Origin: Fretibacterium sp.
GTDB lineage: Bacteria; Synergistota; Synergistia; Synergistales; Aminobacteriaceae
NCBI GenBank assembly: GCA_012520235.1
Contig: JAAYOR010000142.1
Span: 1-38,529, forward strand
Length of the DNA stretch: 38,529 bases
Direction of reading: 5' to 3'
How positions within the stretch are numbered: position 1 is the stretch's first letter; each line of letters begins with the position of its first letter. The notes beneath the pieces are model-generated. The model saw only the letters and a program-made list of their open reading frames with translations, was not told where the DNA came from and did not search any database. Positions 3,899 through 34,753 of the stretch are shown here, piece after piece. A program made the position numbers and the translations under genes.

Positions 3899-3902
3899 GG
3901 CC

Positions 3903-4796: not shown

Positions 4797-4880
4797 GAGA
4801 CAACCACTCCTTTATGAGAATATGTTTTTTACGTTATCGAGCTTAGGTATCAGTATGCCTTCAAGCAGGCCTATCGGCCA

Positions 4881-6164
4881 TCACCTGAACAGCTTCAACG
4901 GCCAGAGGGACAGGATGGGGAAATAGGTTATCAAGAGAACCGCCACGAGATTCCAGAGCATGAAGGGTATGGAACCTTTCATAACCTGCTCGAACGGTCT
5001 CTTCGCTATATTGGCCGCCACAAAGAGGTCCACCCCCATAGGAGGCGTCACCATCCCCAGAGCCAGATTGGTGATCACGAAGATCCCGAAATGGATGGGA
5101 TCCACCCCTATCTTCACAGCCAGGGGGAGGAAAATAGGGCAGAAAATCAGGATGTTCGACAGCGTGTCGATGAACATTCCCCCCAGCAGGAAGACGATGT
5201 TGAACATGAGGAGGATGAGATATTTATTTGTCGTGACGTTGAAGATCAGGTTCGTTATCAGATTTGGCACGTCCTTCATGTGAAGAAGCTTCGCAAAGGC
5301 GCTCGCCGCTCCCATGAGAAAGACACAGGAACCCGTGATGATAGCAGCTTCGATGATGGCCTTGCAGAGCCCGTTTAAGGACAGCTCCCTGGTGAAAAAG
5401 CCATGGACTATGGCATAGGCCACGGCGACGATGCCGGCCTCCGTGGGGGTGAAGACTCCCGAATAGATGCCGCCAAGGATGATCACCGGCATGAGGAGCG
5501 CCGCCTTCGCATCCCAGACCCTTCGCATGACCCACGAGAAACCGCCCTCCCGGGGAGCCCCCGCATAACCTCTTTTCTTCGCAATTTGGACGGTGGGGAT
5601 CATCAGGAAAAGCCCCACGATGATACCTGGGGTGAACCCCGCTATGAAGAGATCCGTTATGGACACCGCGCAGTTCACTCCGTAGACGATCATAGGGACG
5701 CTCGGTGGGATGAGGACGCCGATGCCTCCGGCACACGCCATGAGCCCGGCAGCGTATCCGGCGTCGTACCCCCTGTCCAGCATCGCCGGAATGATGATGG
5801 CGCCGATGGCCGCCACGGTGGCAGGGCCGGAGCCCGAGACAGCGCCGAAGAACATGCACGCCACGATCCCCGCGATGCCGAGCCCGCCGGGGAAATCACC
5901 CGAAATAGCCTCCGCGAGGTCCGTGAGCTTCTTCGCTATACCGCCGTGGGACATGAGGGTCCCAGCCAGGATGAAAAACGGCAGGGCCAACAGGGTAAAG
6001 GAGTCCGCCGTGACCACCATCCGCTGACCGACGAAGAACATGGCCCGGTCAAGCCCGCCGGGCAGCCAGGGGATGAAGGCCAGACAGCTGAACCCTATGG
6101 ATGCGGCGATGGGGACCCCGAGAAGAAGGGCAAGAAACATTCCTCCAAAAACAGCTAGCAACAT
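4881..6164 (-). CDS. dctM: TRAP transporter large permease (DctM)
   Basis: This 427-residue polytopic membrane protein is the sodium-driven transport subunit of a TRAP system. It has about twelve hydrophobic segments and typical features such as GVPIAASIG near the N-terminus, FFGAVSGSGPATVAAIG around 115-130 and TPPMGVDLFVAANI near the C-terminus. The start at 6164 has a GGGGAG SD at 8 bases spacing, 18 bases after the dctQ stop. It works with DctQ and the periplasmic DctP encoded just upstream. TRAP systems mostly carry carboxylates, so the imported ureide or its product is probably anionic. Confidence 0.93.
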   Translation of the reverse strand: MLLAVFGGMFLALLLGVPIAASIGFSCLAFIPWLPGGLDRAMFFVGQRMVVTADSFTLLALPFFILAGTLMSHGGIAKKLTDLAEAISGDFPGGLGIAGIVACMFFGAVSGSGPATVAAIGAIIIPAMLDRGYDAGYAAGLMACAGGIGVLIPPSVPMIVYGVNCAVSITDLFIAGFTPGIIVGLFLMIPTVQIAKKRGYAGAPREGGFSWVMRRVWDAKAALLMPVIILGGIYSGVFTPTEAGIVAVAYAIVHGFFTRELSLNGLCKAIIEAAIITGSCVFLMGAASAFAKLLHMKDVPNLITNLIFNVTTNKYLILLMFNIVFLLGGMFIDTLSNILIFCPIFLPLAVKIGVDPIHFGIFVITNLALGMVTPPMGVDLFVAANIAKRPFEQVMKGSIPFMLWNLVAVLLITYFPILSLWPLKLFR

Positions 6165-6182
6165 GATCTTTTCTCCCCTCCC

Positions 6183-6680
6183 CTACGCAGCGGCTTCCGC
6201 GCCTGGGTCTTTTTTGACAAAGAACGGCAGAATATCCTTCTGGAAGATCCGGAAGGCCATCACGACGAACATCACAGGACCCCAGCAGAAATACGTCCAG
6301 GTCGGAATCTCCATGGCGGCGGTGGTCTGTCCGCTCTTATACTGCAGGACCGCGATGTCGTAGGCGTATTTCGCCACGAGGAGCGTGAAAAACAGAAACG
6401 CGAGGGAGGCGAAAAGCTCCAGGGCCCTGCCCAGTTTTTTCGGGAGGACCACCTGCAGGATCTCCACCTTCACGTGCTGTCTGTGCTTCGAACAGAGGGA
6501 GAAGCTGACCAGGCTCAGGGCAACGAAAAGAATCCGCATCATCTCCTCGGACCACGGGCGGACGAAGCTGAACAGGTATCTGCACACCACCTGATCCATC
6601 CCGATGGCCAGGATGGTGAGAAAGAAAAAGATAGCGAGCGCCTCTTCAAAATAGGCGTCCAGCAACCGAATGAATTTCAC
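6183..6680 (-). CDS. dctQ: TRAP transporter small permease (DctQ), GTG start
   Basis: This 165-residue protein has four membrane segments typical of DctQ, including LAIFFFLTILAIGMDQVVCRYLF and the following WSEEMMRILFV. An upstream ATG at 6752 leaves the frame open, but GGAGGTG lies 6 bases before the GTG at 6680. The extra N-terminal segment would have to be translated through a 16-base perfect stem-loop and reads as low-quality sequence. I therefore choose GTG. The partners are dctM downstream and dctP upstream. Confidence 0.88.
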   Translation of the reverse strand: MKFIRLLDAYFEEALAIFFFLTILAIGMDQVVCRYLFSFVRPWSEEMMRILFVALSLVSFSLCSKHRQHVKVEILQVVLPKKLGRALELFASLAFLFFTLLVAKYAYDIAVLQYKSGQTTAAMEIPTWTYFCWGPVMFVVMAFRIFQKDILPFFVKKDPGAEAAA

Positions 6681-6708
6681 GTTTGACACCTCCGAAGACG
6701 AAGTGACG

Positions 6709-6742
6709 CCAGGGGGACGGAGGAAATCCTCCGTCCCCCTGG
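6709..6742 (-). other. Perfect 16-base stem-loop between dctP and dctQ
   Basis: CCAGGGGGACGGAGGA and its exact reverse complement are separated by two bases. The element starts 16 bases after the dctP stop and ends 28 bases before the dctQ GTG. No T-run follows on the minus strand, so it is not a classical terminator. Stem-loops at this place in binding-protein operons are known to protect the upstream message and raise binding protein over permease levels. That role is inferred here. Confidence 0.8.
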
Positions 6743-6758
6743 TTGTCGCCATGATTTT

Positions 6759-7766
6759 TTAGCTGTTGGGAGCCTCTTCCGCGTAGGACTCCTGGAACTT
6801 CATGATCTTTTCGTAGAGCTCCAAGTCAATGGAATCCCTATACTCGTCGAAGACGGACTTGCTCGCCTCTCTGAAGGCCTGCCGTTCCTCGGCGGTGAGC
6901 TCGATGATCTCGGGGCTCCCGGCCGCCTTGAACTCGTCAAGGATCTTCTTGTTGTTCGCCAGAACGTTCTCCTGATCCCATGTGCACGCCTCGTCAGCGG
7001 CCTTCTGGACTATAGCTTTTTCCTCATCGGAGAGTTTGTTCCAGGTGTTATTCGAGATGACGAGGAGCATGGGGTCCATGATGTGCCCGTCGATGATGAT
7101 GTACTTCTGTACCGTGTGGAACCCCTGGGACTGAATGTTCTCAAGGGTGTTCTCCCCCGCATCGATGACGCCCTGCTGAAGCGACGTGAAGACCTCGCCG
7201 AAGTCCATGGGGATGGGGCTGGCTCCCAGAGCCTTGAATATGCCCATGCGGATGGGGGCCGGCTCCGTGCGGATCTTCACTCCCGCGAGATCCTCGGGCT
7301 TTCTGACGGGCACATTGCTGTGAATATGCCTCCACCCCATGATGAAGTATCCGAGGGGATGGATGCCCTTCTCGTTGAGAGGCTCAACGATCTCCATGGC
7401 GACATCGCTGTTCACGAAGTCAAGGACTGCCTTCTCGCTCTTGAAGAGGTATGGAAGGTCATAGACCGACACCGCTTTTGTGAATTGGGCGAGGAGCCCC
7501 GTGGAGATGATCCAGAAATCCGTGACTCCCTGCTGGATCTGCTCGATTCCCTCCCGGTTATTGCCGAGGGCGGAGGCCCCCATCGCCTTGACCGTCAGCT
7601 TTCCGTCGGAATGTTTCGCAAGAAACTCGGCAAACTTCTCCCCGGCCTGGGCGAAGGTGACCGAGGGCTGTCCGGTATGTCCCAGCACAAATTCCCTGGC
7701 CTGAGCGGCGGGGACAAAAACAAACAGCAACGCGACAGCCATCCAAAGCACTCTGAAACGTTTCAT
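6759..7766 (-). CDS. dctP: TRAP transporter solute-binding protein (DctP)
   Basis: This 335-residue secreted protein captures the substrate for DctQM. A Sec signal peptide spans residues 1-23 (MKRFR, hydrophobic core, AQA cut site). The mature part follows the DctP pattern: GNNREGIEQIQQG, the domain-crossing segment DLAGVKIRTEP with the arginine that normally clamps a substrate carboxylate, then MDFGEVFTSLQQGVIDAGEN. The SD is GGAGG 8 bases upstream of the start. It lies 81 bases after the racemase gene. The conserved arginine argues for an organic-acid ligand; identity unknown. Confidence 0.93.
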   Translation of the reverse strand: MKRFRVLWMAVALLFVFVPAAQAREFVLGHTGQPSVTFAQAGEKFAEFLAKHSDGKLTVKAMGASALGNNREGIEQIQQGVTDFWIISTGLLAQFTKAVSVYDLPYLFKSEKAVLDFVNSDVAMEIVEPLNEKGIHPLGYFIMGWRHIHSNVPVRKPEDLAGVKIRTEPAPIRMGIFKALGASPIPMDFGEVFTSLQQGVIDAGENTLENIQSQGFHTVQKYIIIDGHIMDPMLLVISNNTWNKLSDEEKAIVQKAADEACTWDQENVLANNKKILDEFKAAGSPEIIELTAEERQAFREASKSVFDEYRDSIDLELYEKIMKFQESYAEEAPNS

Positions 7767-7847
7767 GTTCTACCTCCTGACATGTTATGTCTCTATACTA
7801 CCTGTGAACCGCACCGCTTGAACACTGCTTTCCCGGATACACCTCCG

Positions 7848-8531
7848 TTATTTCCCGAAGGTGTTGTCGTAACGTCTCTTTTTGCTGATGGACGTACCGT
7901 ACCTCGCCAGCCCTGACGCGATGATGAGCGCGCAGATGACCCCGTCCAAGACCGGGACGTTCAGCTCCTTCTCCATGGCCTTGTCGAGCCCGGCAAACCC
8001 GGCGCACCCGAGGACCAGAACCTCCGCCATGTCCTCCTCCACTGCCCGCCGTCCGGCTGCCGTGAGGCGCTCCACATCAGTGGAACCCTTCTCCACGTTC
8101 GCCGGTCGGATGGAGGCCAGGTCCCTCGTGATGCCGTACTTGTCAATGAGAGCCTTCTTGTTCGGCATGGTGCGCTCCACGGGAGCGATCACGGAAAACG
8201 TGTGTCCCAGCATGGTGGCCATCTTCATGGACGCCTCTCCTATGCCGACCACCGGCTTGTTGGTCATCTCCTTCATGAGGTCCATGTTGGGATCCCCGTG
8301 GCAGGCGATGACGAAGGCGTCAAAGCTGTCCTCGTTCTCCCGGAGGAGCTGCATCATGCCAGGAGCCGCCACCGCATGATCCTCATAGGTCGCGATGAAC
8401 GGGGAGGTCCCAGGCGTGGGGACCGTGACGACCTCCATCTGGTCCCCCGCAAAGGCCACGGCACTGGCGTGGATGGCCTGGGTCATCTCCGTGCTGCTGT
8501 TCGGATTGATGATGAGGATCTTCGGCTTCAT
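7848..8531 (-). CDS. Asp/Glu/hydantoin-racemase family protein
   Basis: This 227-residue enzyme belongs to the cofactor-independent racemases that include hydantoin racemase and allantoin racemase. The two catalytic cysteines are C77 (VIACHGDPN) and C176 (LVLGCAGFAG), and the N-terminal INPNSS motif is typical. It would interconvert the enantiomers of a ring substrate so that stereospecific ring opening can go to completion. I start it at the ATG at 8531, which overlaps the stop of the preceding hydrolase gene (ATGA) with GGAG upstream, rather than at 8552. The overlap implies coupled translation. Maleate isomerase or arylmalonate decarboxylase functions are possible alternatives, but the neighbours favour a ureide racemase. 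Confidence 0.87.
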   Translation of the reverse strand: MKPKILIINPNSSTEMTQAIHASAVAFAGDQMEVVTVPTPGTSPFIATYEDHAVAAPGMMQLLRENEDSFDAFVIACHGDPNMDLMKEMTNKPVVGIGEASMKMATMLGHTFSVIAPVERTMPNKKALIDKYGITRDLASIRPANVEKGSTDVERLTAAGRRAVEEDMAEVLVLGCAGFAGLDKAMEKELNVPVLDGVICALIIASGLARYGTSISKKRRYDNTFGK

Positions 8532-9931
8532 GCTTTCGCTCCGTCCCGCCACTCGGGATAGAGGACTTTGCCCCAGCCCTGGGCCGTCTCATCAATAACC
8601 CGGTCCTTCATCACGACCCGGCCGCGCACGACAGTGTGAATGGGCTTACCCACCAGCTTGAACCCGTTGTACATGGGGGAGGTATCCCTGGATTGGGTCA
8701 CGAAATCCTTGTTATCAACCGTAAATTCATTCTTCATGTCGACGACGACGTAATCGGCATCGCCTCCGACCTGGATGGCCCCTTTTCTCGGCCAGAGGCC
8801 AAAAACTTTCGCCGTGTTCTCGGAGAGAAGCTCGACCATCCGCTTCATGGTGAGCTTTCCATCCCGAACGGCTGTGAGCATGAGGGGCAGCGTCATCTCG
8901 ATGCAGGCGGAACCCGCAGCTGCCGTGAAGATGTCCTTCATCCCCTTCTCCTTCTCGGAGACGAGAAAAGGACCGTGGTCGCTTCCGATGAAGTCCACGG
9001 AGCCGTCGTTGATGTAGTCCCACATCTTCTCCACGGACTGCCTGTCACGAAGTGGCGGGTTCCCCTTGGCGTAGGGGCCGTATTTGTCGACCGTCTCCAC
9101 ATCGAGGAACAGGTAATGAGGGCAGGTCTCAAGGTAGACGTCCATTCCTTCGAGCTTCGCCTGTTTGACAAGCTCTGAGGCCTCCGGCGTCGAGATGTGG
9201 GCAAAATTCACCCTCGTGCCCGTCTCCTTCGCAAACAGGATGAGCTTGGAGACGGTCTCTATCTCCGAGATAGGCGGGCGGGATTTGTAGTGGTACTCAA
9301 AGCCGACCTTCCCCTCGGCTCGGAACTGCCGGATCAGCCGCTGGATGATGTCGTTATTCTCGGCGTGGACGGTCAGGATCAACCCCGTCTTCGCCACAGC
9401 CTTGAAGCCGTCGAGCATCTCCCCGTCGTTGGCCATGGTGAGACCGCGAAACTCCTCATCCCGCCCCTCCGGCGCCTGATGGAGGAAGGTCTTGAAGGCG
9501 ACGATCCCTTCCTTCGCAACCTTCTCCACCTCTTCAGGGAACTCAGCACCGGCTGCCCCGAAAAATGCGTAGTCCACAAAGGCCTGAGGGGCCGCCACTT
9601 TGATCCTGTTCTGCAGGACCTCAGGGGAATAGGGAGGGGGTGAGGAAATGGGGTGCTCAAGGAAGCACGTCACACCGCCCGCCACCGCTGCCTTGGTCTC
9701 CGTGACAAAGGTTCCGCGCTCCCTGTGGCCCGGGTCACGCACGTGAACATGGCTGTCCACGACGCCCGGCAGAACGAGGTTCCCCCCCGCATCAAGGACT
9801 TCAGTCGCCTCGGGCAGATAGTCATCCTCGCAGATCAGGGCGGTCTTCCCGTCCCGCACCGCGATCCCACCCTTGAACAATTCGCCGTTGGCATACACCT
9901 GTCCGTTTCGAATCACCAAATCCGCCTTCAC
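8528..9931 (-). CDS. Allantoinase-type cyclic amidohydrolase (paralogue 1)
   Basis: This 467-residue amidohydrolase opens cyclic ureides such as allantoin, hydantoins or dihydropyrimidines. The di-metal site is complete: H61 and H63 (DSHVHVRDPGH), bridging lysine K147 (AFKTFL), H189 (VHAENN), H245 (AHISTPE) and D318 (GSDHGPF). The ETCPHYLF motif (268-275) is conserved. AAGGAGG lies inside the longer frame that begins at 9955, 5-8 bases before two consecutive GTG codons (9934 and 9931). Translation therefore starts at one of these GTGs and gives the usual VKADLVIRNG N-terminus. It overlaps the racemase gene by four bases. It shares about the whole fold and every metal ligand with the second hydrolase at 11605-12984. 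Confidence 0.88.
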   Translation of the reverse strand: MKADLVIRNGQVYANGELFKGGIAVRDGKTALICEDDYLPEATEVLDAGGNLVLPGVVDSHVHVRDPGHRERGTFVTETKAAVAGGVTCFLEHPISSPPPYSPEVLQNRIKVAAPQAFVDYAFFGAAGAEFPEEVEKVAKEGIVAFKTFLHQAPEGRDEEFRGLTMANDGEMLDGFKAVAKTGLILTVHAENNDIIQRLIRQFRAEGKVGFEYHYKSRPPISEIETVSKLILFAKETGTRVNFAHISTPEASELVKQAKLEGMDVYLETCPHYLFLDVETVDKYGPYAKGNPPLRDRQSVEKMWDYINDGSVDFIGSDHGPFLVSEKEKGMKDIFTAAAGSACIEMTLPLMLTAVRDGKLTMKRMVELLSENTAKVFGLWPRKGAIQVGGDADYVVVDMKNEFTVDNKDFVTQSRDTSPMYNGFKLVGKPIHTVVRGRVVMKDRVIDETAQGWGKVLYPEWRDGAKA

Positions 9932-9987
9932 CACAAAAACCTCCTTATTCGACAAATAAATACTCTATTCCCTATCTACCATCGGCT

Positions 9988-11418
9988 TCAGGCATTGATT
10001 TCAGGGCCAAAGAACCGGTCTATCACAGCCTCTGATGGCGGGGGTGTGTTGAGGCTCACGACAATGAGCGCGATAAGGCCGGTCACAAGGGACGGAAGGA
10101 TGGGGAACCATCCGAAGGGACGCTTCAGATACTCCCACACCAAGGCCGTTGCAAGACCGACGAGCATGGCCGCCATAGCGCCCTGGCTGTTCGCACGCTT
10201 CCATGCAAACGCTGCCAGGACGACGATGGAGAGCATGGAGCCCATGATACCCACCATGCCTGCCTGGATCCACATGACGCCCGACTCCATGTTGATCGTC
10301 GCGAGGATCGCTATGATCCCGATGATGAACGTCGTCACCCTGGCTATCTTGAGCAGCTGCCCCGAGGAGTACTCCCTTGGAGAGAGTTTCTGGAGGATGT
10401 CCCGAACAAACGTGGTGCCCGCGAGGAGCAGTACCGAGTCGGCTGTGGAAATAGCGGCGCCGAGCACTCCGGCCATGACCAGGCCTCCGATCCATGGGTT
10501 CATGAACTTCTTGATGAGAGTTGGGGCAACGCTGTCCGGACTCTCAATCCCCGGGACAAGGATGATGCCGGCAAGCGCGATGAGCATGAGGGGAAGATAT
10601 ATGAAGATGAACGTCACGGCGCAATAAGCTTGGCTCTTTGCTGCGGTATCCGCGTCCTTGGCAGCGTAAATTCGGGTGGAGAACTGGGGCGATCCGATAT
10701 TCCCGAGCCCCCAGGTGAAGAACCAGGACATGGCTACCCCTAAAGGGATGGCCCCGCCGGCAAAGGGATCCAGGGCAGTGGGTTTGACCTCCGCAAGTTT
10801 GCGGTGAATCTCCACAACTCCTCCGGCCTCACCGACGATGACATACATCAAGGCCCACACGCCGAGCAGGATGACGACGCTGCAGAACGTATCGGTCCAG
10901 GCCACGGACTCCATCCCGCCAAGGACCGTAAAGAGGATGAAGATAGCCCCTATGCCTACTATCGCAGCGGTCCTGCTGATAGCGGGAATGGTCGTGGTGA
11001 TGACGGCGGCGCAGCCCACAAGCTGGGCGCAGGTGAAGAAGATCATAGCGATGAGGATGACGACCCCGGCCAGGATGCTATGAGCCCTCCCGTATCGCGC
11101 TTCGAAAAGATCCGGAAGGGTGACCTGCCCGAAGTTCCGAAGTTTCCGGGCAAACCAGAGCGCGGAGATAAAGGAGGTCAATGCCGTCCCTGCCCAATTC
11201 CACCAGCCTCCCCATCCGTGGGCATAGTAGTATCCCATGTATCCCACGACGGAGACGGTGCTGATGATCGTAGCAAAATAGGTCCCGACCAAGGGCACAA
11301 CGCCGAGGTTTCTGCCGGCAATAAACCAGTCTTCCTCGTCCTTAACCCTTTTTGAAACGTAGACGCCGATCAAGAGCAGCAGCACAAGAAAAAGAGCAAT
11401 ACTTACTATCAGTTCCAT
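9988..11418 (-). CDS. Sodium:solute symporter (SSS family)
   Basis: This 476-residue protein has about thirteen membrane segments and SSS-family traits: the RNLG loop near residue 40, FGQVTLPDLFEARYG around 105-118, and AAISTADSVLLLAGT around 325-340, where the Na2-site serines lie. It should couple sodium entry to uptake of an organic solute, giving the operon a second importer besides TRAP. The SD GGGAGGATAT precedes the start. A 30-residue membrane peptide is encoded directly upstream. The substrate cannot be assigned from sequence; pyrimidine, ureide or amino-acid-like solutes are plausible. Confidence 0.88.
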   Translation of the reverse strand: MELIVSIALFLVLLLLIGVYVSKRVKDEEDWFIAGRNLGVVPLVGTYFATIISTVSVVGYMGYYYAHGWGGWWNWAGTALTSFISALWFARKLRNFGQVTLPDLFEARYGRAHSILAGVVILIAMIFFTCAQLVGCAAVITTTIPAISRTAAIVGIGAIFILFTVLGGMESVAWTDTFCSVVILLGVWALMYVIVGEAGGVVEIHRKLAEVKPTALDPFAGGAIPLGVAMSWFFTWGLGNIGSPQFSTRIYAAKDADTAAKSQAYCAVTFIFIYLPLMLIALAGIILVPGIESPDSVAPTLIKKFMNPWIGGLVMAGVLGAAISTADSVLLLAGTTFVRDILQKLSPREYSSGQLLKIARVTTFIIGIIAILATINMESGVMWIQAGMVGIMGSMLSIVVLAAFAWKRANSQGAMAAMLVGLATALVWEYLKRPFGWFPILPSLVTGLIALIVVSLNTPPPSEAVIDRFFGPEINA

Positions 11419-11452
11419 TTTTAATATCCTCCCTTCCTATCCACTCTGTCGT

Positions 11453-11545
11453 CTATCTCTTCTTTTGGAAGAAAATAACGGTGATGGGGAGCAGACATAA
11501 GAACGCGAAGAAGAGCCAATACAGAATGAGCGACTTTGGAATCAT
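11453..11545 (-). CDS. 30-residue single-span membrane peptide, possible symporter accessory subunit
   Basis: The frame MIPKSLILYWLFFAFLCL... runs 30 codons from an ATG at 11545 to a TAG at 11453. It has a strong AGGAGG site about 10 bases upstream. Residues 6-26 form one hydrophobic span, and the C-terminus is basic (QKKR). It sits 34 bases before the SSS gene in the same direction. Small one-span partners encoded next to sodium symporters are known (MetS of the MetPS NSS system; small proteins beside SSS genes), so an accessory role is likely by position. I recognise no named family in the sequence itself. Confidence 0.65.
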   Translation of the reverse strand: MIPKSLILYWLFFAFLCLLPITVIFFQKKR

Positions 11546-11604
11546 GGTTCCTGTACCTCCTTTAGAGATCGAACCGTCAAAGACGGCGCTTCTGCGAACG
11601 TCCT

Positions 11605-12984
11605 CTAGGGAAGGACGCACCGGCCCCATCCACTGGCCGACGGGACCTCCTCACTCGCCGAATAGACAATACGCCCACGCACAAGACAGGTCATAACTTG
11701 TCCAAAAACTCGCCTCCCTTCATAGAGTTTGGCAATTCCACGCCCTGCGGTCTTCATGCAGGACGCCCGGATAATGAAGTCACGTTCCGTATCTACCGCT
11801 ACCACATCGCCGTCCGCACCCACGGCGAGAGCGCCCTTTCTGGGGAAGAGGTCGAAAACCTTTGCCGCATTTGTGGAAAGCAAGTCCACCGTTCGTTGAA
11901 GCGTTATGCGCTTCTCCCGCACCGCTGTGATGAAGAGCGGAAGCCGTTCCTCGAAGCCGGTGGAGCCGGAAGGGCACGCAAAGATATCCTCCAATCCCGG
12001 TTCCTTTTCCGAAGGGAGAAAAGGCCCATGGTCACTGCCTACGTAGTCCACCGTTCCATCCAACACGTATTGCCAGAGCTTGTCGGAGGATTTTTGGGGT
12101 CGTATAGGCGGGTTGAACTTGGCAAAGGGGCCGAGGTGGGCCACGGACTCCTCGTCGCAGAAAAGGAACTGGGGGCAGGTTTCGGCGTATACCTGAACGC
12201 CCTGCCGTTTCGCCCTCCGTATGAGCTCCATCGCCTCAGGCGTGGAAACATGACAGATGCTGACTCGGGCGCCGGTGCTTTGAGCGTAGCAGAGGACCTT
12301 GCCCACTGCCGACACTTCAGCAATGGGAGGCCTTGCCTTGCCGTGGGCGAGAAAGTCTTTTTCGCCCCTTCTTTTCAGTGCCGCAGTGCACCGCTGAACG
12401 ATACTGTCGTTCTCGGCATGGACGGCGCATATCTTGCCCGTCCCCGCCACGGTCTCGAGGATCTGGAGCAGCGCCCCGTCATCCTCGGCACAGGTACCCT
12501 GAAACTCCCCTTCCCGCCCCGCCGATGGAGCGAAAAGAAAGGTTTTAAATGCGATAACGCCTGCTTTCGCCAAAGCAGGGATAAACTCCGCCCTGTTTCC
12601 GGCAGCGCCGTAAAAGGCAAAATCGACGGAAGAGCGTTCCGCGGCGCATCGCATTCTGTCGCGAAGAATTTCGGGTGAATATTGAGGAGGATCGGATATG
12701 GGCATCTCCAGGATGGTCGTGATGCCCCCAGCGGCGGCAGCGACCGTCTCCGTAGCAAAATCGCCCCGCTCCCGCCGCCCCGGGTCGCGCACGTGGACGT
12801 GAGTGTCCACGCCACCCGGCAACAGAAGGGCCCCCTGAAGGTCCAACTCCCTCCTCCCAACTGGGAGAAACGGGTTGGCTCCTAAGGATACGATTTTGCC
12901 ATCGGTGATGGCTAGGCCACCGTGAAATACTTCTCCGGAGCTGAACACTCGCCCGTTTCGAAGCACTATGTCGGCAGAGTTCAT
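11605..12984 (-). CDS. Allantoinase-type cyclic amidohydrolase (paralogue 2)
   Basis: This 459-residue paralogue of the hydrolase at 8528-9931 has the same ligand set: H62 and H64 (DTHVHVRDPGR), K148, H189, H245 and D318 (GSDHGPF). The widely conserved ETCPHY motif is ETCPQF here (Q272 for His), beside an otherwise intact active site, so substrate preference may differ. Its ATG overlaps the stop of the iclR gene (ATGA), making it the first structural gene of the operon and translationally coupled to its regulator. The reaction is hydrolytic opening of a cyclic amide or ureide. Confidence 0.86.
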   Translation of the reverse strand: MNSADIVLRNGRVFSSGEVFHGGLAITDGKIVSLGANPFLPVGRRELDLQGALLLPGGVDTHVHVRDPGRRERGDFATETVAAAAGGITTILEMPISDPPQYSPEILRDRMRCAAERSSVDFAFYGAAGNRAEFIPALAKAGVIAFKTFLFAPSAGREGEFQGTCAEDDGALLQILETVAGTGKICAVHAENDSIVQRCTAALKRRGEKDFLAHGKARPPIAEVSAVGKVLCYAQSTGARVSICHVSTPEAMELIRRAKRQGVQVYAETCPQFLFCDEESVAHLGPFAKFNPPIRPQKSSDKLWQYVLDGTVDYVGSDHGPFLPSEKEPGLEDIFACPSGSTGFEERLPLFITAVREKRITLQRTVDLLSTNAAKVFDLFPRKGALAVGADGDVVAVDTERDFIIRASCMKTAGRGIAKLYEGRRVFGQVMTCLVRGRIVYSASEEVPSASGWGRCVLP

Positions 12985-25641: not shown

Positions 25642-26568
25642 GTGTTTGCTTATATCGTCAGGAAAATTTTATATACGATCCCGGTCCTCTGGGGCGTGGT
25701 GACCGTGGTGTTTTTCGTCATCAACATCGTGCCTGGTGACCCTGTTGCCATCATGACGGGACAGAGGGGGGACGAGGAGACCTTGGCAAAGATCCGGGCC
25801 GACATGGGGCTGGACCTTCCCCTGGGACAGCAGTACGTCCGTTTCCTCGGGCAACTCTGCCGGGGCGACCTGGGGACTTCCTACCGCAATAACGAGCCTG
25901 TGAGCTCGGCCATCTGGACGCGCCTGGGCGCAACGGCCCGTCTCGCCGCAGGTGCTCTGTTCCTCGGGACGGTCCTGGGAATCGCGGCCGGAGTGCTCTC
26001 GGCCGTCAAACGCTACTCCGTGTTCGACTACGGGGCCATGTTCGTTGCTATAGCAGGGGTGAGCGCCCCCGTGTTCTGGGTCGGTCTGCTGCTGCTGCTG
26101 TTCTTTGCCTACACTCTGGGCTGGGTGCCGGGCGTGGGCTACGGAGACGGTTCCTTCAAATACCTCATCCTACCCATGATCACCCTGGGCATCCGCCCCG
26201 CCGCTCTCACCGCGCGCCTCTCGCGGTCCTGTATGCTGGAGGTCCTGAGCCAGGACTACGTGAGAACGGCCAGAGCCAAGGGGCTGAAAAGGACGGCTGT
26301 GGTGATGAAACATGCCCTGAAGAACGCGATGATCCCAGTGGTGACAGTGATAGGCACTCAAATATCCTCGTTGCTCTCAGGGGCCGTCCTGACGGAGAGC
26401 ATCTTTGCCTGGCCGGGCATCGGGCGCCTCTCGGTGGACTCTCTACTGGCGCGTGATCTGCCGATGATCCGCGGGGTCGTGGTCTTCATGGCCGTCACTT
26501 TCCTGGTGGTCAACCTGCTGGTGGACATTTCCTATGCTTTCCTTGACCCGAGGATTCGCTATGACTGA
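25642..26568 (+). CDS. dppB: Dipeptide/oligopeptide ABC transporter permease (DppB type)
   Basis: This 308-residue inner-membrane permease starts with GTG at 25642, with GGGGAG 8 bases upstream. The N-terminal YIVRKILYTIPVLWGVVTVVFF segment and the PGDPVAIMTG loop are typical of DppB/OppB. The cytoplasmic coupling (EAA) loop reads VRTARAKGLKRTAVVMKHALKN. It pairs with the DppC-type protein, whose gene overlaps it by 8 bases. Confidence 0.93.
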   Translation: MFAYIVRKILYTIPVLWGVVTVVFFVINIVPGDPVAIMTGQRGDEETLAKIRADMGLDLPLGQQYVRFLGQLCRGDLGTSYRNNEPVSSAIWTRLGATARLAAGALFLGTVLGIAAGVLSAVKRYSVFDYGAMFVAIAGVSAPVFWVGLLLLLFFAYTLGWVPGVGYGDGSFKYLILPMITLGIRPAALTARLSRSCMLEVLSQDYVRTARAKGLKRTAVVMKHALKNAMIPVVTVIGTQISSLLSGAVLTESIFAWPGIGRLSVDSLLARDLPMIRGVVVFMAVTFLVVNLLVDISYAFLDPRIRYD

Positions 26569-27487
26569 CGTCCGACAGAACGCTTTCGACACGGCCCCAG
26601 AGGAGAACCCAAAGGCGCTCTCCTCCGGAAGCCTTTGGTATGAAGCCTGGCTGCGTTTTCGGCGCAACCGCCTGGCAATGTTGGGGCTCTTTATGATCCT
26701 GGCTCTCGTGGGCATCGCGGTCTTCGCTCCTCAGCTGGCACCCTTCGACCCTTACAAACAGCTTATCTGGACCGAGGGCTCCAAGGCCAAGCTGGCGGCC
26801 CCTTCATGGGCACATCTGATGGGCACGGACGCCTACGGGCGCGACATTATGAGCCGCGTCTTTTACGGCGCACGCCTCTCGCTCCAGATAGGCTTCCTGG
26901 CCACGGTGGTGTCACTGTTGATAGGGGTGCCCCTTGGAGCGATAGCCGGCTATTACGGAGGGTGGATTGACGATCTCATCTCTTGGCTCATCAACGTGAT
27001 CTTCGCCTTTCCCTTCATGCTCTTTGTCCTGGCTATCGTGGCCGTGCTCAACAACCCCAGCATGATCGCCGTCTTCACGGCTATCGGGCTGGTCAGCTGG
27101 GTCTCCATCGCCCGCGTCGCCCGTGCTCAGTTCCTATCCTTACGCGAGCGCGAGTACGTGGAGTCCGCCAGAGCTCTGGGGCTCCCGACCCGGACCATTT
27201 TGTTCAAGCACATCCTGCCGAACACCCTGGCCCCCATCATCGTGCAGGCCACTCTCGGGATAGGTAGCATTATCCTGATGGAGGCGGGGCTTGCGTTCCT
27301 GGGTTTTGGCGCTCAGCCTCCAGAGCCCAGCTGGGGCCTGATGATCTCGGATGGGCAACAGTACCTGACGACAGGGCAGTGGTGGTGGGCCTTCTTCCCC
27401 GGCATGGCGATCATGATCACTGTGCTGGCCTTCAACTTTCTGGGCGACGGCCTGCGCGACGCGCTGGACGTCCGCCTGAAGCGCTAG
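26561..27487 (+). CDS. dppC: Dipeptide/oligopeptide ABC transporter permease (DppC type)
   Basis: This 308-residue permease has an N-terminal cytoplasmic stretch, the first membrane helix LAMLGLFMILALVGIAVFAP and the conserved HLMGTDAYGRDIMSRVFYGARLSL motif of DppC/OppC. Its EAA loop is VESARALGLPTRTILFKHILPN. The start at 26561 has GAGGAT upstream and overlaps the dppB stop; the frame opening at 26534 is not used. It is the partner of DppB. Confidence 0.92.
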   Translation: MTDVRQNAFDTAPEENPKALSSGSLWYEAWLRFRRNRLAMLGLFMILALVGIAVFAPQLAPFDPYKQLIWTEGSKAKLAAPSWAHLMGTDAYGRDIMSRVFYGARLSLQIGFLATVVSLLIGVPLGAIAGYYGGWIDDLISWLINVIFAFPFMLFVLAIVAVLNNPSMIAVFTAIGLVSWVSIARVARAQFLSLREREYVESARALGLPTRTILFKHILPNTLAPIIVQATLGIGSIILMEAGLAFLGFGAQPPEPSWGLMISDGQQYLTTGQWWWAFFPGMAIMITVLAFNFLGDGLRDALDVRLKR

Positions 27488-27501
27488 GGAGGACACGGAC
27501 A

Positions 27502-28524
27502 ATGCATTCACACCACAACTCACAGCTCCGGGTCACCGACCTGAGGACGTACTTTGACACGGACGCCGGGCTCGTCCGGGCCGTAGATGGGGTCTCCTTC
27601 ACCCTGCAAAAGGGTCAGACCCTCGGCATCGTGGGCGAGTCGGGCTGCGGCAAGAGCGTCCTCTCCCTCTCTATCATGCGCCTTCTGCCCGAGCCCGTCG
27701 GCTTCGTGGCAGGGGGAAACGTCGTCTTCGAGGGCACGGAGCTGCTGGAACTCAGCGAATCCGCCATGTGCTCGGTCCGGGGCAACCGCATCTCCATGAT
27801 CTTCCAGGAACCCATGACCAGCCTCAACCCAGTCATGACGATCGGCGAACAGCTGATAGAGCCTCTCCGCCTCCATCAGGGCATGGGCACGCGGGAGGCG
27901 CGGGAGGCGGCCACGGAGATGTTGCGCAAGGTCCGAATCGCCGACCCGGAGCAGCGCCTGAAGGAGTATCCGCACCAGCTCTCAGGAGGCATGCGCCAGC
28001 GCGCCATGATAGCCATGGCGCTGATGTGTAACCCCTCTCTCCTCATAGCGGACGAGCCGACGACAGCCCTGGACGTCACAGTTCAGGCCCAGATCCTGCG
28101 GCTGATGAACGATCTCAAGGCCGACACCGGTACGTCCATCATCTTCATCACCCACGACCTTGGGGTCATCGCTCAGATGGCAGAGCACGTGATGGTGATG
28201 TACGCGGGACGCGCCGTGGAGCACCAGGACGTGGAGACCCTCTTCAAGAGCCCGGGACATCCCTATACCCGAGGGCTCTTGCGCTCCATGCCAGCTCTCT
28301 TTGGAGGGCAGAAGCGGCTCTCGACCATCCCGGGGATGGTCCCTAACCTGCTGGAGCCGATGGATGGCTGCAGGTTCCACAACCGATGCAGCTATGTCCA
28401 AGAGAGATGCCGCCATGAGGAGCCGCCTCTCTTCAACTTTGAAGGCGGCCTCGTCCGCTGCTGGCTGCACGAGGCAGGGCGCTACGAATTTGACGGGACG
28501 GAGGAGGCTCTGCACCATGACTGA
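27502..28524 (+). CDS. dppD: Peptide ABC transporter ATP-binding protein (DppD type)
   Basis: This 340-residue ATPase has Walker A GESGCGKS around residues 43-50, the Q-loop IFQEPMTSLNP, signature LSGGMRQR and Walker B LLIADEPTTALD. The C-terminal oligopeptide-transporter extension carries the cysteines CRFHNRCSYVQERC, a cluster found in this subfamily. The ATG at 27502 has GGGAGGACA upstream. The much longer open frame from 27379 is only overlap with dppC. Its stop overlaps the dppF start. Confidence 0.93.
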   Translation: MHSHHNSQLRVTDLRTYFDTDAGLVRAVDGVSFTLQKGQTLGIVGESGCGKSVLSLSIMRLLPEPVGFVAGGNVVFEGTELLELSESAMCSVRGNRISMIFQEPMTSLNPVMTIGEQLIEPLRLHQGMGTREAREAATEMLRKVRIADPEQRLKEYPHQLSGGMRQRAMIAMALMCNPSLLIADEPTTALDVTVQAQILRLMNDLKADTGTSIIFITHDLGVIAQMAEHVMVMYAGRAVEHQDVETLFKSPGHPYTRGLLRSMPALFGGQKRLSTIPGMVPNLLEPMDGCRFHNRCSYVQERCRHEEPPLFNFEGGLVRCWLHEAGRYEFDGTEEALHHD

Positions 28525-29494
28525 GACCCAAGACTTCATCCGCGTTGAACATCTGAAAAAACACTTCCCCGTCCGCAAGGGCGTCTTCCGAGCCACGAAA
28601 GGATACGTCCGGGCTGTGGACGACGTTTCCTTCTCCATTAAAAAAGGCGAGACTCTGGGTATCGTAGGCGAGTCGGGCTGCGGCAAGTCCACCATCGGAC
28701 GCACGATGATCCACCTGCTTAAGCCCACGTCGGGCTCCGTGCTGTTGGAGGGGCAGGACGTAGGAGCCCTGCTGGCTGAAAACCCCAAAGCTCTGCGCCG
28801 CCGCCTCCAGATAATCTTTCAGGACCCCTACGGCAGCCTGAATCCCAGGCTCACAGTCCGGGATATCGTGGGCGAAGGAGCCTGGTTCCAGGGACTGGCC
28901 AGGAACGCCCGGGACCTTGACGTGCTGGTCGTCGAGGCGCTGCGGCAGGCGGGCCTCCAGCCCGAACACCGGTTCCGCTACCCACACGAGTTCTCGGGCG
29001 GGCAGAGGCAGCGCATCTGCATCGCGCGGGCCATCGCCGTGCAGCCGGAGCTCGTCGTCTGTGACGAGCCGGTCTCGGCCCTTGACGTCTCCATCCAGAG
29101 CCAGGTCCTGAATACCCTCAAGGACCTGCAGGAGGCCCGGGAGCTCACCTACCTCTTCATCACCCATGACCTCTCGGTGGTGCGCTTCATCTCGACCCGC
29201 GTCGGCATCATGTACCTGGGGAAGCTTGTGGAGCTGGCGCCGACGGAGGAGATCTTTAACAACCCCTTGCATCCCTACGCGCAGGCGCTCCTCTCCTCCA
29301 TCCCTCTGCCCGACCCCACGAAGCGGACGACTCAGCCCCCTCTGGAGGGCGACGTGCCCTCCCCAATCAACCCGCCTTCGGGCTGCCGCTTCCACACGCG
29401 CTGCCCTCGCGTCATGGACATCTGCTCTCAGAGCGAGCCTCCCCTGACGGACCGGGGAGGCGGACACGAAGTGGCCTGCTTTCTGAAGGCTTGA
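28517..29494 (+). CDS. dppF: Peptide ABC transporter ATP-binding protein (DppF type)
   Basis: This 325-residue second ATPase has Walker A GESGCGKS, the Q-loop IFQDPYGSLNP, signature FSGGQRQR and Walker B LVVCDEPVSALD. Its C-terminal cysteine segment is CRFHTRCPRVMDIC. The start at 28517 has GAGGAGG upstream and overlaps the dppD stop, so translation is coupled. Together DppD and DppF power the DppBC pore. Confidence 0.93.
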   Translation: MTETQDFIRVEHLKKHFPVRKGVFRATKGYVRAVDDVSFSIKKGETLGIVGESGCGKSTIGRTMIHLLKPTSGSVLLEGQDVGALLAENPKALRRRLQIIFQDPYGSLNPRLTVRDIVGEGAWFQGLARNARDLDVLVVEALRQAGLQPEHRFRYPHEFSGGQRQRICIARAIAVQPELVVCDEPVSALDVSIQSQVLNTLKDLQEARELTYLFITHDLSVVRFISTRVGIMYLGKLVELAPTEEIFNNPLHPYAQALLSSIPLPDPTKRTTQPPLEGDVPSPINPPSGCRFHTRCPRVMDICSQSEPPLTDRGGGHEVACFLKA

Positions 29495-29589
29495 AGGGAG
29501 GTGAGAGAAGGACAAGGCGCCTGTCATGCCTCAGGATTTTTTTACGGGGCTTCAGAGTGTAGTTTAAAAAAAACAGGAGGTTAAGATCG

Positions 29590-31224
29590 ATGAAGAAAAT
29601 GATGCAGTTCATGGGAGTTCTACTGTTTGTAACCGCTCTTCTCCTGTCCGGCCCGGCCGCGTGGGCAGAGGAAGAGCCTCAGTACGGAGGCGTTCTGGCC
29701 TGGCGCATCACCAGCGACCCGCCCGCGCTTGACCCTGCCCATGCCAACATCGTCATCTCCGCGCGCGGAGCCAACCTCTACTGTGAAACTTTGGTGGAGA
29801 TCAGCAAGGATGGTCAGGAACTCCTGCCCATGCTGGCCGAGTCCTGGGAGGTCAACGAGGACTCCACCGTCTGGACCTTCCGGCTCCGTCCAGGCGTGAA
29901 GTTCCACAAGACCGGCTATCAGGGCAAACCCACGGCTAACGGTGGGCGCGAGGTGGTCGCGGCCGACGTCAAGTACTCCTTCGAGCGTCTGCTGCGGGAG
30001 AAGGCTGCCCGAGCCTACTTCCTGAACTCCATCAAGGGATATCAGGAGCTCTTTGACGAGAAGGCCGACTCCTGGGAGGGCATTGAGGTCCTGGACGACC
30101 GCACCGTGCGTTTCACCCTGTCCACCCCCTACGCTCCCTTCCTGGCTGCCCTCAGCTACACAGCCTTCAGCATCGTTCCCCATGAGGACGCGGAGAAGCT
30201 TGGCAAAGACTTCAACTTCCAACCCGTGGGCACAGGGCCCTTCATCCTCAACGACTGGAAGCACGACAACGAGGTCATCTTCCGCAAAAATCCCGACTAC
30301 TGGCGCAAGGACTCCGCAGGCCGGGCACTGCCCTACCTGGACGGCGTGAATCTGGTCGTCATCCCCGACAGCAGCGTGGCCTACCTGGAGTTTGGCAAGG
30401 GGAACATCGACGTCCTCTCCGACATCCCCAACGAGTTCTACTCGGAGATCCAGGAGAAGTACAGGGACCAATTCCAGTCCTGCCCCACGCTGGCAACCCA
30501 GTACTACGGCATGGCCGTGAACAAGGAGCCGTTTGACGACGTCCGGGTTCGCCAGGCCTTCAACTACGCCGTGAACCGCGAGGCCATCAACGAGCTGGTG
30601 CTGCACAACACCTTCATCCCCGGCAAGGGCGTGCTGCCCCCCGGGATGCCAGGCTACAACCCGGATCTGGAGTCCTACACCTACGACCCCGAGAAGGCCA
30701 AAACCCTGCTCAAGGAGGCCGGCTACGATAAGGGGCTGACCGTGACCCTGCAGTACAACAACAACCCCCGCCACAAGATGATCGGCGAGGCAGTACAGGC
30801 TCAGATGGCCGAGATCGGCATCAAGATGGAGCTTCAGGCCTCCGAGCTGGGCGCACACTACGACGCAGTGCGCCGCGGTGACGTTCCCTTCTTCCGGGCC
30901 GGCTGGTCCGGAGACTACCCCGACCCGGACAACTTTCTCTATAACCTCTTCTGCTCCGATAATTTCGGCCAAAAGGGCAACTACGCCCGCTACAAGAACG
31001 ACGACGTCGACGCCTGGCTGAAAGAGGCCCGCAGCATCTCCGACACTGATAAGCGCATGGAGCTCTATCGCAAGGCTGAGCAGCAGATAGTGAAGGACGC
31101 CCCGTGGATGTTCCTCTTCTACGACACCACCAACCTGGTGAGCAACGAGAAGGTCCGCAACATCCACCTGGCCTCCATGGGAGAGTACCAGACGCCCCTG
31201 ACTGAGGTCTGGAAGGTAAAATAA
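29590..31224 (+). CDS. dppA: Peptide ABC transporter substrate-binding protein (DppA type)
   Basis: This 544-residue protein has a signal peptide (residues 1-26, MKKMMQ, hydrophobic core, AWAEEE) and the SBP_bac_5 fold typical of dipeptide and oligopeptide binding. Examples are TWTFRLRPGVKFH, VAADVKYSFERLL, GTGPFILNDW and GDYPDPDNFLYNLF. AACAGGAGG is 8 bases before the start. It lies 95 bases after dppF, in a gap that has a weak stem with a T-run. It has a paralogue just downstream that is broken. A strong terminator follows. Confidence 0.93.
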   Translation: MKKMMQFMGVLLFVTALLLSGPAAWAEEEPQYGGVLAWRITSDPPALDPAHANIVISARGANLYCETLVEISKDGQELLPMLAESWEVNEDSTVWTFRLRPGVKFHKTGYQGKPTANGGREVVAADVKYSFERLLREKAARAYFLNSIKGYQELFDEKADSWEGIEVLDDRTVRFTLSTPYAPFLAALSYTAFSIVPHEDAEKLGKDFNFQPVGTGPFILNDWKHDNEVIFRKNPDYWRKDSAGRALPYLDGVNLVVIPDSSVAYLEFGKGNIDVLSDIPNEFYSEIQEKYRDQFQSCPTLATQYYGMAVNKEPFDDVRVRQAFNYAVNREAINELVLHNTFIPGKGVLPPGMPGYNPDLESYTYDPEKAKTLLKEAGYDKGLTVTLQYNNNPRHKMIGEAVQAQMAEIGIKMELQASELGAHYDAVRRGDVPFFRAGWSGDYPDPDNFLYNLFCSDNFGQKGNYARYKNDDVDAWLKEARSISDTDKRMELYRKAEQQIVKDAPWMFLFYDTTNLVSNEKVRNIHLASMGEYQTPLTEVWKVK

Positions 31225-31289
31225 AACAAAAATCCTCGGACACGCGTCGGACAAAGACCATTTGCGACGGGGAACTTGCCCGCCGTGAG

Positions 31290-31317
31290 AGACAGCCCCC
31301 TCCGGGGCTGTCTTTTT
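31290..31317 (+). terminator. Terminator after dppA
   Basis: AGACAGCCCC and GGGGCTGTCT form a perfect 10-base stem with a four-base loop, followed by TTTTATG. It is about 65 bases past the dppA stop. Confidence 0.88.
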
Positions 31318-31337
31318 ATGCTTTTTATGCCTATAAT
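31309..31337 (+). promoter_or_regulatory. Candidate promoter upstream of the broken dppA paralogue
   Basis: TATAAT (31332-31337) lies 17 bases after TGTCTT, which overlaps the end of the terminator stem. The -10 is a perfect match; the -35 is poor. The gene starts about 130 bases downstream. Confidence 0.35.
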
Positions 31338-31469
31338 ATAAGATGGATTCAGTAACAAAAGGACCTCAATGATTTTATATTTTTAGCTTTTTACGGAACT
31401 GCTAAGCCAACCTGCGCTTCCCTGGTTTTATTTGAGGTTTCGCCTTGTGTTGCAGGGAGATGAAAATAA

Positions 31470-33089
31470 ATGGATAAAATGCCCAACAAGTTTTTTCGAT
31501 TCGCAGCGCTGGTTATAGTGCTCTTTTTTCTGTCCCTCATTCCCGCCTCGGCGGAGCCCAGGTACGGCGGGACCCTTCGCTGGCGCATGGATAGCCTGCC
31601 GCAAACCCTTGACCCTGCTTCCGCCACTTTTATGACATCCATGCGCACACTCTCCCTCTGCGGTGAGGCCCTGGTAGGACTTCAGAAGGACGGGAGAAGC
31701 ATCGCCCCTCTCCTCGCCGAATCCTGGGAAACCAACAGGAATTCCACTGTCTGGACTTTCCAGCTGAGGCAGGGGGTGACCTTTCAGAAGACAGGGGCTA
31801 AAGGCAAGCCAACAGCCAACGGAGGCCGGGAGCTCGTGGCAGCCGACGTCAAATACTCCCTGGAACGTCTGGTCCGGAAGCATTCCCCGCGCATCTATTT
31901 CCTGAATCAGGTCAGAGGCTTCCAGGAGTTCTGGGACGGAAGGACAAAAGAATGGGAGGGCATTGAAGTCCTGAACGACCACACCGTGCGCTTCACTCTT
32001 TCTATCCCCTACGCGCCCTTTCTAGCCGCCCTCAGCTACGTCTCGTTCTGCATAGTACCCCATGAGGACGCCGAGGATGACTCGTTTCAGCTCTTCCCCG
32101 TCGGCACAGGCCCTTTTATCGTCAGAGACTGGCAGGAAGACCGGATCGTTCTGGAGAGGAACCCCGACTATTGGATACATGACACGAACGGGCGCACTCT
32201 GCCCTACCTGGATGGCGTTGAGCTGATCTCCATCCCCGAGAGTCCGGATGCTGTCACAGCCTTCCAGAACGCTTCCATCGACGTCCTGCCCGACGTGCCG
32301 AGCACCCTGCGCTCAACCTTCGAGGGCAAGGAGGGCTACCAATCCCGCGCCAGTCTTCTCACCTGCTACTAAGGCATGGCTGTCGATCAAAAGCCCTTTG
32401 ACGATCCCAAGGTCCGGCGCGCGTTCAACTACGCAGTGAATCGAGAGGAGCTCAACGAACGCCTGATGGAAGGCAGCCATATCCTCGCCAAAGGCGTCTT
32501 GCCCCCCGGGATGCCGGGTTTCAACCCGGACCTGAAGTCCTACACCTACGATCCGGAGAAGGCCAAAGACCTGCTTAAAGAGGCCGGCTATGAAAACGGG
32601 CTCTCCGTGACGCTCGCCTGCACGGAGAACAAGGCTCAGATAACCCTGGCCAAAGGCATCGCAGAGCAGCTGGCCCGGATAGGCGTCCAGGTGACCCTCC
32701 ATATCTCCGACGGCAACTCGCACTACACCGCCGTGAGAGCCGGTGAGCATGCCTTCTTCCACGCGATCTGGGCGGGAGACTACCCCGACCCGGACAACTT
32801 TCTCTACAACCTCTTCTCCTCCGACAACTTCGGCGCCAAGGGCAACTACACCCACTACAAGAACGATGAAGTCGACTCCTGGCTATGGGCGGCTCGACGC
32901 ACCCTCTCCCCCAAAGACCGCATTGAGCTCTACCGAAAGGCCGAACAGCAGATAGTGGACGACGCACCCTGGCTCTTCCTTTATTATGACAACACCGACC
33001 TGCTCGCCCTCCCCGAGGTGCAGGGGCTTAAGCTGGCTTTTTTGGGATACTACCTGACGCCCCTGACCGAGGTCTGGAAGACAGAATAA
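31470..33089 (+). pseudogene. Second DppA-type binding protein, interrupted by one in-frame TAA
   Basis: The full frame is 540 codons and aligns with the intact dppA along its length, but codon 301 (32370-32372) is TAA. The intact copy has TYR there (QYYGMAV against CY-stop-GMAV), so a single TAC-to-TAA change explains it. The first part has a signal peptide (residues 1-28) and the front of the SBP_bac_5 fold. The second part continues in the same frame to 33089 with GDYPDPDNFLYNLF and the usual end. There is no frameshift and no other stop, so the break is recent or is a sequencing error. TAA is not a known recoding codon for selenocysteine or pyrrolysine. The back half has an ATG at 32376, but no SD or signal peptide. 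Confidence 0.85.
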
Positions 33090-33157
33090 CGCCCACCGCA
33101 ACTTGGGAGCTCAAACTTCTCAGATACCTTAGCGTTATATGACATATTGAAAACAGA

Positions 33158-33229
33158 ATTAACCACGAAAGCTTATATGGCATGTTTTTCTTTTTTTCGT
33201 GTCTTTCGCGTGGTTCGCGGTTCATGAAA
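33158..33229. repeat. Degenerate 9-base repeat element (CACGAA-type)
   Basis: Read on the minus strand, four consecutive 9-base units run GAACCGCGA, ACCACGCGA, AAGACACGA and AAAAAAGAA. An inverted, single ACCACGAAAG copy lies at the other end (33161-33170). Similar arrays of ACCACGAA-like units are common as interspersed intergenic elements in many bacteria. Nothing here is coding. Confidence 0.5.
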
Positions 33230-33355
33230 TAAGTCCTTTTTTAGTCTGTGCGAAGTTTGAGTTAGGGGTCCGCCTGTCGCCCATAGAGCCTCCTAGGCAG
33301 GTCCCGTTTTATGCAGACTGCCCCACGGACCTTCATCAGCCCCCACAACAGACAT

Positions 33356-33386
33356 CCCCACCGGCCTCCGAGGTCGGTGGGGGTTT
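33356..33386 (+). terminator. Terminator after the broken binding-protein gene
   Basis: CCCCACCGGCCT and AGGTCGGTGGGG pair over 12 bases with one G-U pair and a three-base loop, followed by GTTTTCTTT. Confidence 0.75.
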
Positions 33387-33416
33387 TCTTTGGTGCCTTT
33401 GGATTCAGAAAGGCCC

Positions 33417-33445
33417 TGTCTTTTTGGGTGGCCTACGTTTATAAT
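33417..33445 (+). promoter_or_regulatory. Candidate promoter of the aldo/keto reductase gene
   Basis: TATAAT (33440-33445) lies 17 bases after TGTCTT (33417-33422). The same TGTCTTTTT-to-TATAAT spacing occurs at 31309-31337, again just after a terminator. The -35 is a poor match. Confidence 0.35.
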
Positions 33446-33616
33446 GAAAGGACAAAGGCTTTGAGGGAACAGTTGCGCTTGCGCGTCTCTTCTTAGTTTT
33501 GCGTATCGCACCTCCCCCCTTCCTGACGGGAGAAAGCCTCGGGGAAGGACTGTAAGGGAGGCTCTTTAGCGAACCGCAACTGAGTTTACAGAATTATTCA
33601 GAGGGGGAATGTTGAG

Positions 33617-34753
33617 ATGCTTCACCGCGAGATCCCGCGTCTGGGCAAAGAGTATTCCATCCTGGGCTTTGGCTGTATGCGCCTGCCCACGAAAGACGGC
33701 CTCATCGATGAGCCTAAGGCCGAGGCTCTGATGCGGGAGGCCTTTGAGGGTGGGATTAATTATTTTGACGCGGCCTGGCCTTATCACGGCGGAAAATGCG
33801 AGGAGTTTGTGGGCCGTGCCATGAAGCCCTGGCGCGACAAGGTGACCCTGGTGACAAAACTGCCGGTCTGGCTGCTGGAGAAGCCGGAGGACATGGAGAA
33901 CTTCCTGCACAAACAGCTGGAGTTCCTTCGCACGGACCACTTCGACATCTACCTGTTGCACTCGATGAACGCAGAGCGATGGGACAAGATGCAGAGAATG
34001 AACGCTCTGGACTTCCTGGAGAGAGCCCGGAAGGCCGGAAAGATACGGGGCATCGGCTTCTCTTTTCACGATGGCCTGAACTCGTTTAAGACTATTGCTG
34101 ATGCTTATCCCTGGGATATGTGCCAGATTCAGTACAACCTTCTGGACGACAACTTTCAGGCCGGTACGGAGGGCCTACGCTATGCAGCTTCAAAAGGACT
34201 CAGTGTCGTGGTGATGGAGCCCCTCAAGGGGGGCAACATAAGCTTACCCGTGCCCGAGGAATTGAAGTCCGAGGCTAAAGCGGCGGGCTACACCGCCCCT
34301 AATCTGGCGGACCTGGGCCTGCGTTGGGTTTGGGACCATCCGGAGGTCTCGGTGGTCCTGAGCGGCATGACAACCCCCGAGCAGCTGAGGCAGAACCTCG
34401 CCTCCGCCAAACGCGGTATGCCGGGCAACCTGAGCGACGCCGAACGGACGTTCGCCGCACAGGTCAGGAGTTTCTTTGTCGAGCGAATGAGGGTGCCCTG
34501 CACATCCTGTGCCTACTGCAAGCCCTGTCCTCAGGGCGTGGACATCCCTCAGTGCTTCACCAATCTGAACAACGCGGCTATCTCGGGCAACTGGGAGGCC
34601 CAGAAGGCCAACTACAACTACATCCTGGCCCCGGACCGGGAGGGAAAGAAGGCCTCGCACTGTGTGGAGTGCGGCGAGTGCGAGCCGAAATGCCCTCAGA
34701 GGATCCCCATCCGCGAAAAGCTCAAGGAGGTCGTCGCAGCCTTTGAAAGCTGA
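33617..34753 (+). CDS. Aldo/keto reductase with ferredoxin-like C-terminal domain
   Basis: This 378-residue protein has an aldo/keto-reductase barrel (residues 1-270) with the catalytic tetrad: D51 in YFDAA, Y56 in AWPYHGG, lysine in VTKLP and histidine in YLLHSM. A C-terminal domain has two cysteine clusters, CTSCAYCKPCPQGVDIP and CVECGECEPKCPQ, which should bind two [4Fe-4S] clusters. Such fusions are typical of anaerobes and presumably couple ferredoxin-type electrons to carbonyl reduction; substrate unknown. GAGGGGGAATG lies just before the ATG at 33617. It is monocistronic or leads into the NSS gene 139 bases away. Confidence 0.9.
   Translation: MLHREIPRLGKEYSILGFGCMRLPTKDGLIDEPKAEALMREAFEGGINYFDAAWPYHGGKCEEFVGRAMKPWRDKVTLVTKLPVWLLEKPEDMENFLHKQLEFLRTDHFDIYLLHSMNAERWDKMQRMNALDFLERARKAGKIRGIGFSFHDGLNSFKTIADAYPWDMCQIQYNLLDDNFQAGTEGLRYAASKGLSVVVMEPLKGGNISLPVPEELKSEAKAAGYTAPNLADLGLRWVWDHPEVSVVLSGMTTPEQLRQNLASAKRGMPGNLSDAERTFAAQVRSFFVERMRVPCTSCAYCKPCPQGVDIPQCFTNLNNAAISGNWEAQKANYNYILAPDREGKKASHCVECGECEPKCPQRIPIREKLKEVVAAFES

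Follow-up and report, generated by a model that had tools for sequence, protein, structure and literature searches.

An in-frame stop codon in an otherwise open bacterial gene may mark a gene that has been lost, a gene that is still expressed in some altered way, a codon read as an amino acid, or a flaw in the sequence itself. The question is raised here by a peptide-binding protein gene of Fretibacterium sp., which we call A2, in a stretch of 38,529 nucleotides (contig JAAYOR010000142.1) referred to throughout as the window. A first-pass annotation made from the letters alone had described a single in-frame TAA splitting a second dipeptide-binding protein, and had offered three readings: a very recent loss, a phase- or strain-variable allele, or a base-call error.

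A2 follows a transporter cluster, the gene order being two permease and two ATPase genes, then the intact binding-protein gene A1, and then A2 (Table 1). Three further genomes from the family carry A1 orthologues that are 73 to 76% identical. Elsewhere in the window, the genes at 548-1525 and 2122-2595 have third-position G+C of 0.45 and 0.54, against a window median of 0.78, which suggests a foreign origin for these two genes. Plasmid origin was also considered, and no match was obtained. Judged from translations only, the region 2705-12984 holds two dihydropyrimidinase-like genes (8528-9955 and 11605-12984), a racemase-like gene, an amidase/carbamoylase-like gene, and a TRAP transporter, and looks like a cluster for the utilization of cyclic amides of the hydantoin type.

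Table 1. Features of the A2 locus, in positions of the window
Feature	Position	Strand	Remarks
Two permease and two ATPase genes, dipeptide/oligopeptide type	25642..29494	+	25642-26568, 26534-27487, 27499-28524, 28373-29494
A1, intact family-5 binding protein	29590..31224	+	Final gene in the transporter cluster
Terminator-like hairpin between A1 and A2	31287..31316	+	13 pairs; consensus match only
Weak promoter-like site 5' of A2	31352..31381	+	1 found vs 1.2 expected by chance
A2, second family-5 peptide-binding protein gene, interrupted	31470..33089	+	539 codons if read through; PF00496
A2 5' half	31470..32369	+	300 aa; signal-peptide-like N terminus (helix 7-22) and first part of domain
In-frame TAA, codon 301 of A2	32370..32372	+	A1 and most homologues have Tyr here, a few Ile or Trp
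A2 3' half	32376..33089	+	237 aa; starts at an ATG three bases 3' of the stop
Terminator-like hairpin 3' of A2	33354..33384	+	

The interruption itself is as first described. The TAA shares its frame with the ATG at 31470, and the two open reading frames called here (31470-32372, 300 amino acids, and 32376-33089, 237 amino acids) are one frame. Beyond the stop this frame runs on without a shift, as the first-pass annotation had it, for 238 sense codons to a terminal TAA at 33087-33089; the 239 codons originally reported include that terminal stop. From the frequency of stop triplets in the window, the chance of an open frame of 238 codons is about 0.002, and this one encodes the matching right half of the same family, with the conserved motif GDYPDPDNFLYNLF in both A2 and A1. 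The intact neighbor does carry TAC at the aligned site (30505-30507), so the difference between the genes is a substitution, and the alignment with A1 reveals no repeat tract at the stop. Because the change is a substitution without such a tract, the phase-variable allele lacks a signature and becomes the weakest member of what was otherwise the right set of readings.

Membership of A2 in the family is clear when the frame is read through the stop. In a whole-genome Pfam search, SBP_bac_5 spans the stop as a single domain of 301 bits with one TAA inside, and with an X at the stop, the A2 protein scores 300 bits to this profile (PF00496), for which the cutoff is 32.4 bits. The halves alone score 148 and 139 bits and match profile positions 2-193 and 209-366 of 368, in order. 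Neither A2 (201 bits) nor A1 (268 bits) reaches the curated cutoff of 1005 bits for NF043070, the NCBIfam equivalog of DppA, and on these scores both are relatives rather than equivalogs.

A structural model tells us what the stop would remove. The alignment-based model of read-through A2 has a mean pLDDT of 92 and a pTM of 0.87 (a single-sequence model was poor and was set aside), and its best PDB matches, with TM about 0.8, are DppA-type peptide-binding proteins: 6ofq (DppA of Helicobacter pylori), 3m8u (Haemophilus GbpA), and 1dpp (E. coli DppA). The two-lobed periplasmic binding-protein fold is predicted only for the frame read through. Residue 301, the site of the stop, lies within a long strand, 290-303, which from general knowledge of the fold we take to be the strand linking the lobes; a truncated product would therefore be without one lobe and the return strands. 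Translation would end inside this strand, and the 300-residue product, with the remainder of the fold missing, would be expected to lack activity or to be degraded. A2 has the premature in-frame stop expected of a nonsense pseudogene, at codon 301 of 539, and by the model this stop removes essential parts.

The alternative that this TAA encodes an amino acid, genome-wide or only at codon 301, has the open frame beyond the stop in its favor and nothing else. A survey of five families in this genome gave 132 matches, among which A2 alone has an internal stop (0 in the other 131), and TAA terminates 10 of the 32 genes in the window, A1 and A2 included. These two observations exclude TAA as a sense codon genome-wide and uphold, for this genome, the earlier statement that TAA is not a recoding codon; we give the amino acid reading practically no credence. 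We also rejected a regulatory RNA or a recoding element around the stop, since no Rfam match over its gathering score was found in 29000-34000.

Dating the stop depends on the history of A2, which the first-pass annotation had not addressed. A2 is no near-copy of its neighbor but a long-branch paralogue (55 to 60% identity). A tree of 32 proteins places it together with A1 and with A1 orthologues from three other genera (support, 100/99); its protein branch measures 0.94, roughly sevenfold the 0.14 of A1. Its exact place is unsure because the fork that excludes it from the A1 group has support of only 94/79. Recent wholesale gene conversion between the two genes is ruled out, as the longest run of equal bases that they have in common is only 32. 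A search of 188 genomes of the phylum returned paralogues and A1 orthologues and no orthologue of A2; the relatives searched included no other species of the genus, and a scan of genome contigs returned only relatives at 27 to 31%, in Bacteroidota. With no orthologue in the phylum genomes, only the lack of further damage limits how old the stop can be.

Signs of past constraint are found on both sides of the stop. At positions invariant in nine relatives, A2 keeps 93 of 116 before the stop and 82 of 108 after it, and A1 keeps 116 of 119 and 108 of 110. By these counts, A2 had already given up about a fifth of the positions that are invariant elsewhere. Under a codon model written for this analysis, omega on the A2 branch is 0.10 (0.05 before the stop and 0.22 after), values that are rough averages over a long branch with synonymous sites near saturation and that are silent on the time since the stop. 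A value of 1 is rejected for the branch as a whole, as well as before the stop (P = 5e-9) and after it (P = 0.003). We considered the higher omega of the 3' half as a sign of longer disuse and did not accept it, as the halves also differ fourfold in the length fitted to the A2 branch and synonymous sites are close to saturation. Qualitatively, A2 was for most of its history a coding gene under constraint, if a fast-changing one. A random substitution in A2 has a chance of about 3.4% of creating a stop, and more than about 87 neutral substitutions (5% of sites) since its loss are unlikely, as a second stop would probably have arisen. A2 has no further stops or frameshifts, and the nonsense change is therefore recent, polymorphic, or an assembly or base error.

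Past constraint on both halves also raises the possibility that A2 is still used, through low-level readthrough or through termination and reinitiation at ATG 32376, yielding a full-length protein or two halves. The ATG lies at a spacing from the stop where restart is conceivable, and it has been argued that many bacterial in-frame stops are no pseudogenes (PMC7918605). However, the Met at this position is a conserved one of the family, present in the near relatives, so a restart codon is present there by chance rather than by adaptation. The bases before it, CTACTAAGGC, contain no Shine-Dalgarno motif at a usable distance, while A1 has AGGAGG. In addition, the 3' half has no signal peptide, nor would a product restarted at this ATG, the cut is predicted to fall inside the linking strand, and no orthologue that keeps the stop was found in the 188 phylum genomes. 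Continued use thus seems to us quite improbable. Still more doubtful is a switch maintained in the population, in which readthrough or restart yields A2 at a low level while alleles with and without the stop alternate as the peptide supply changes.

An error in assembly or base calling, or an allele of a minority strain that has entered the consensus while the dominant allele is intact, deserves more weight, although we consider it unlikely. The assembly is in 196 contigs, one substitution is the only blemish in the gene, and an error would leave just such an intact frame 3' of the stop. Nevertheless, the 131 stop-free family matches argue that the assembly is not error-rich in that respect. 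We favor, as the probable explanation, that a single nonsense change has recently cut A2, a paralogue of the dipeptide-binding protein A1 that is specific to its lineage and evolves fast. This stop may be fixed in the lineage or be one allele in the population, and the loss would be tolerated because A1 would keep the transporter supplied. Most simply, the stop is an ordinary recent nonsense allele of a spare gene, or a strain or assembly variant, and calls for no new coding mechanism.

The locus is best annotated as a single interrupted gene rather than two proteins, with the peptide supply of the transporter credited to A1. Beyond annotation the case has little importance, but if reads were to show polymorphism, A2 would illustrate in a modest way how a duplicated binding protein begins to decay in an organism that has many transporters for peptides.

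In-frame stops are widespread in bacterial genes, where most are short-lived and persist about as long as a polymorphism in a population (Belinky et al. 2021, PMC7918605). A2 is like the genes of that set in that one nonsense codon interrupts a gene otherwise under constraint, but the set requires a stop common to two or more species, and the A2 stop has been seen once. Brucella dppA (BR1586) is a pseudogene in extracellular solute-binding protein family 5, a DppA-type binding-protein gene that in-frame stop codons have inactivated and that is intact in a relative (PMC2743711). There the loss is proven by intact orthologues in another species, whereas A2 has one stop only and no orthologue was found in the 188 phylum genomes. 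A second case comes from another genome of the order (G072), where a family-5 binding-protein gene has a TAG at 2092-2094 of locus L022, on the minus strand. This TAG sits at the Trp of a conserved LAESW motif and is followed by 458 open codons, and equivalents of the gene are intact in two other genomes of its genus. As in A2, a single stop interrupts an otherwise open family-5 frame; the stop codon, its position, and the branch of the family are different, and the event is an independent one.
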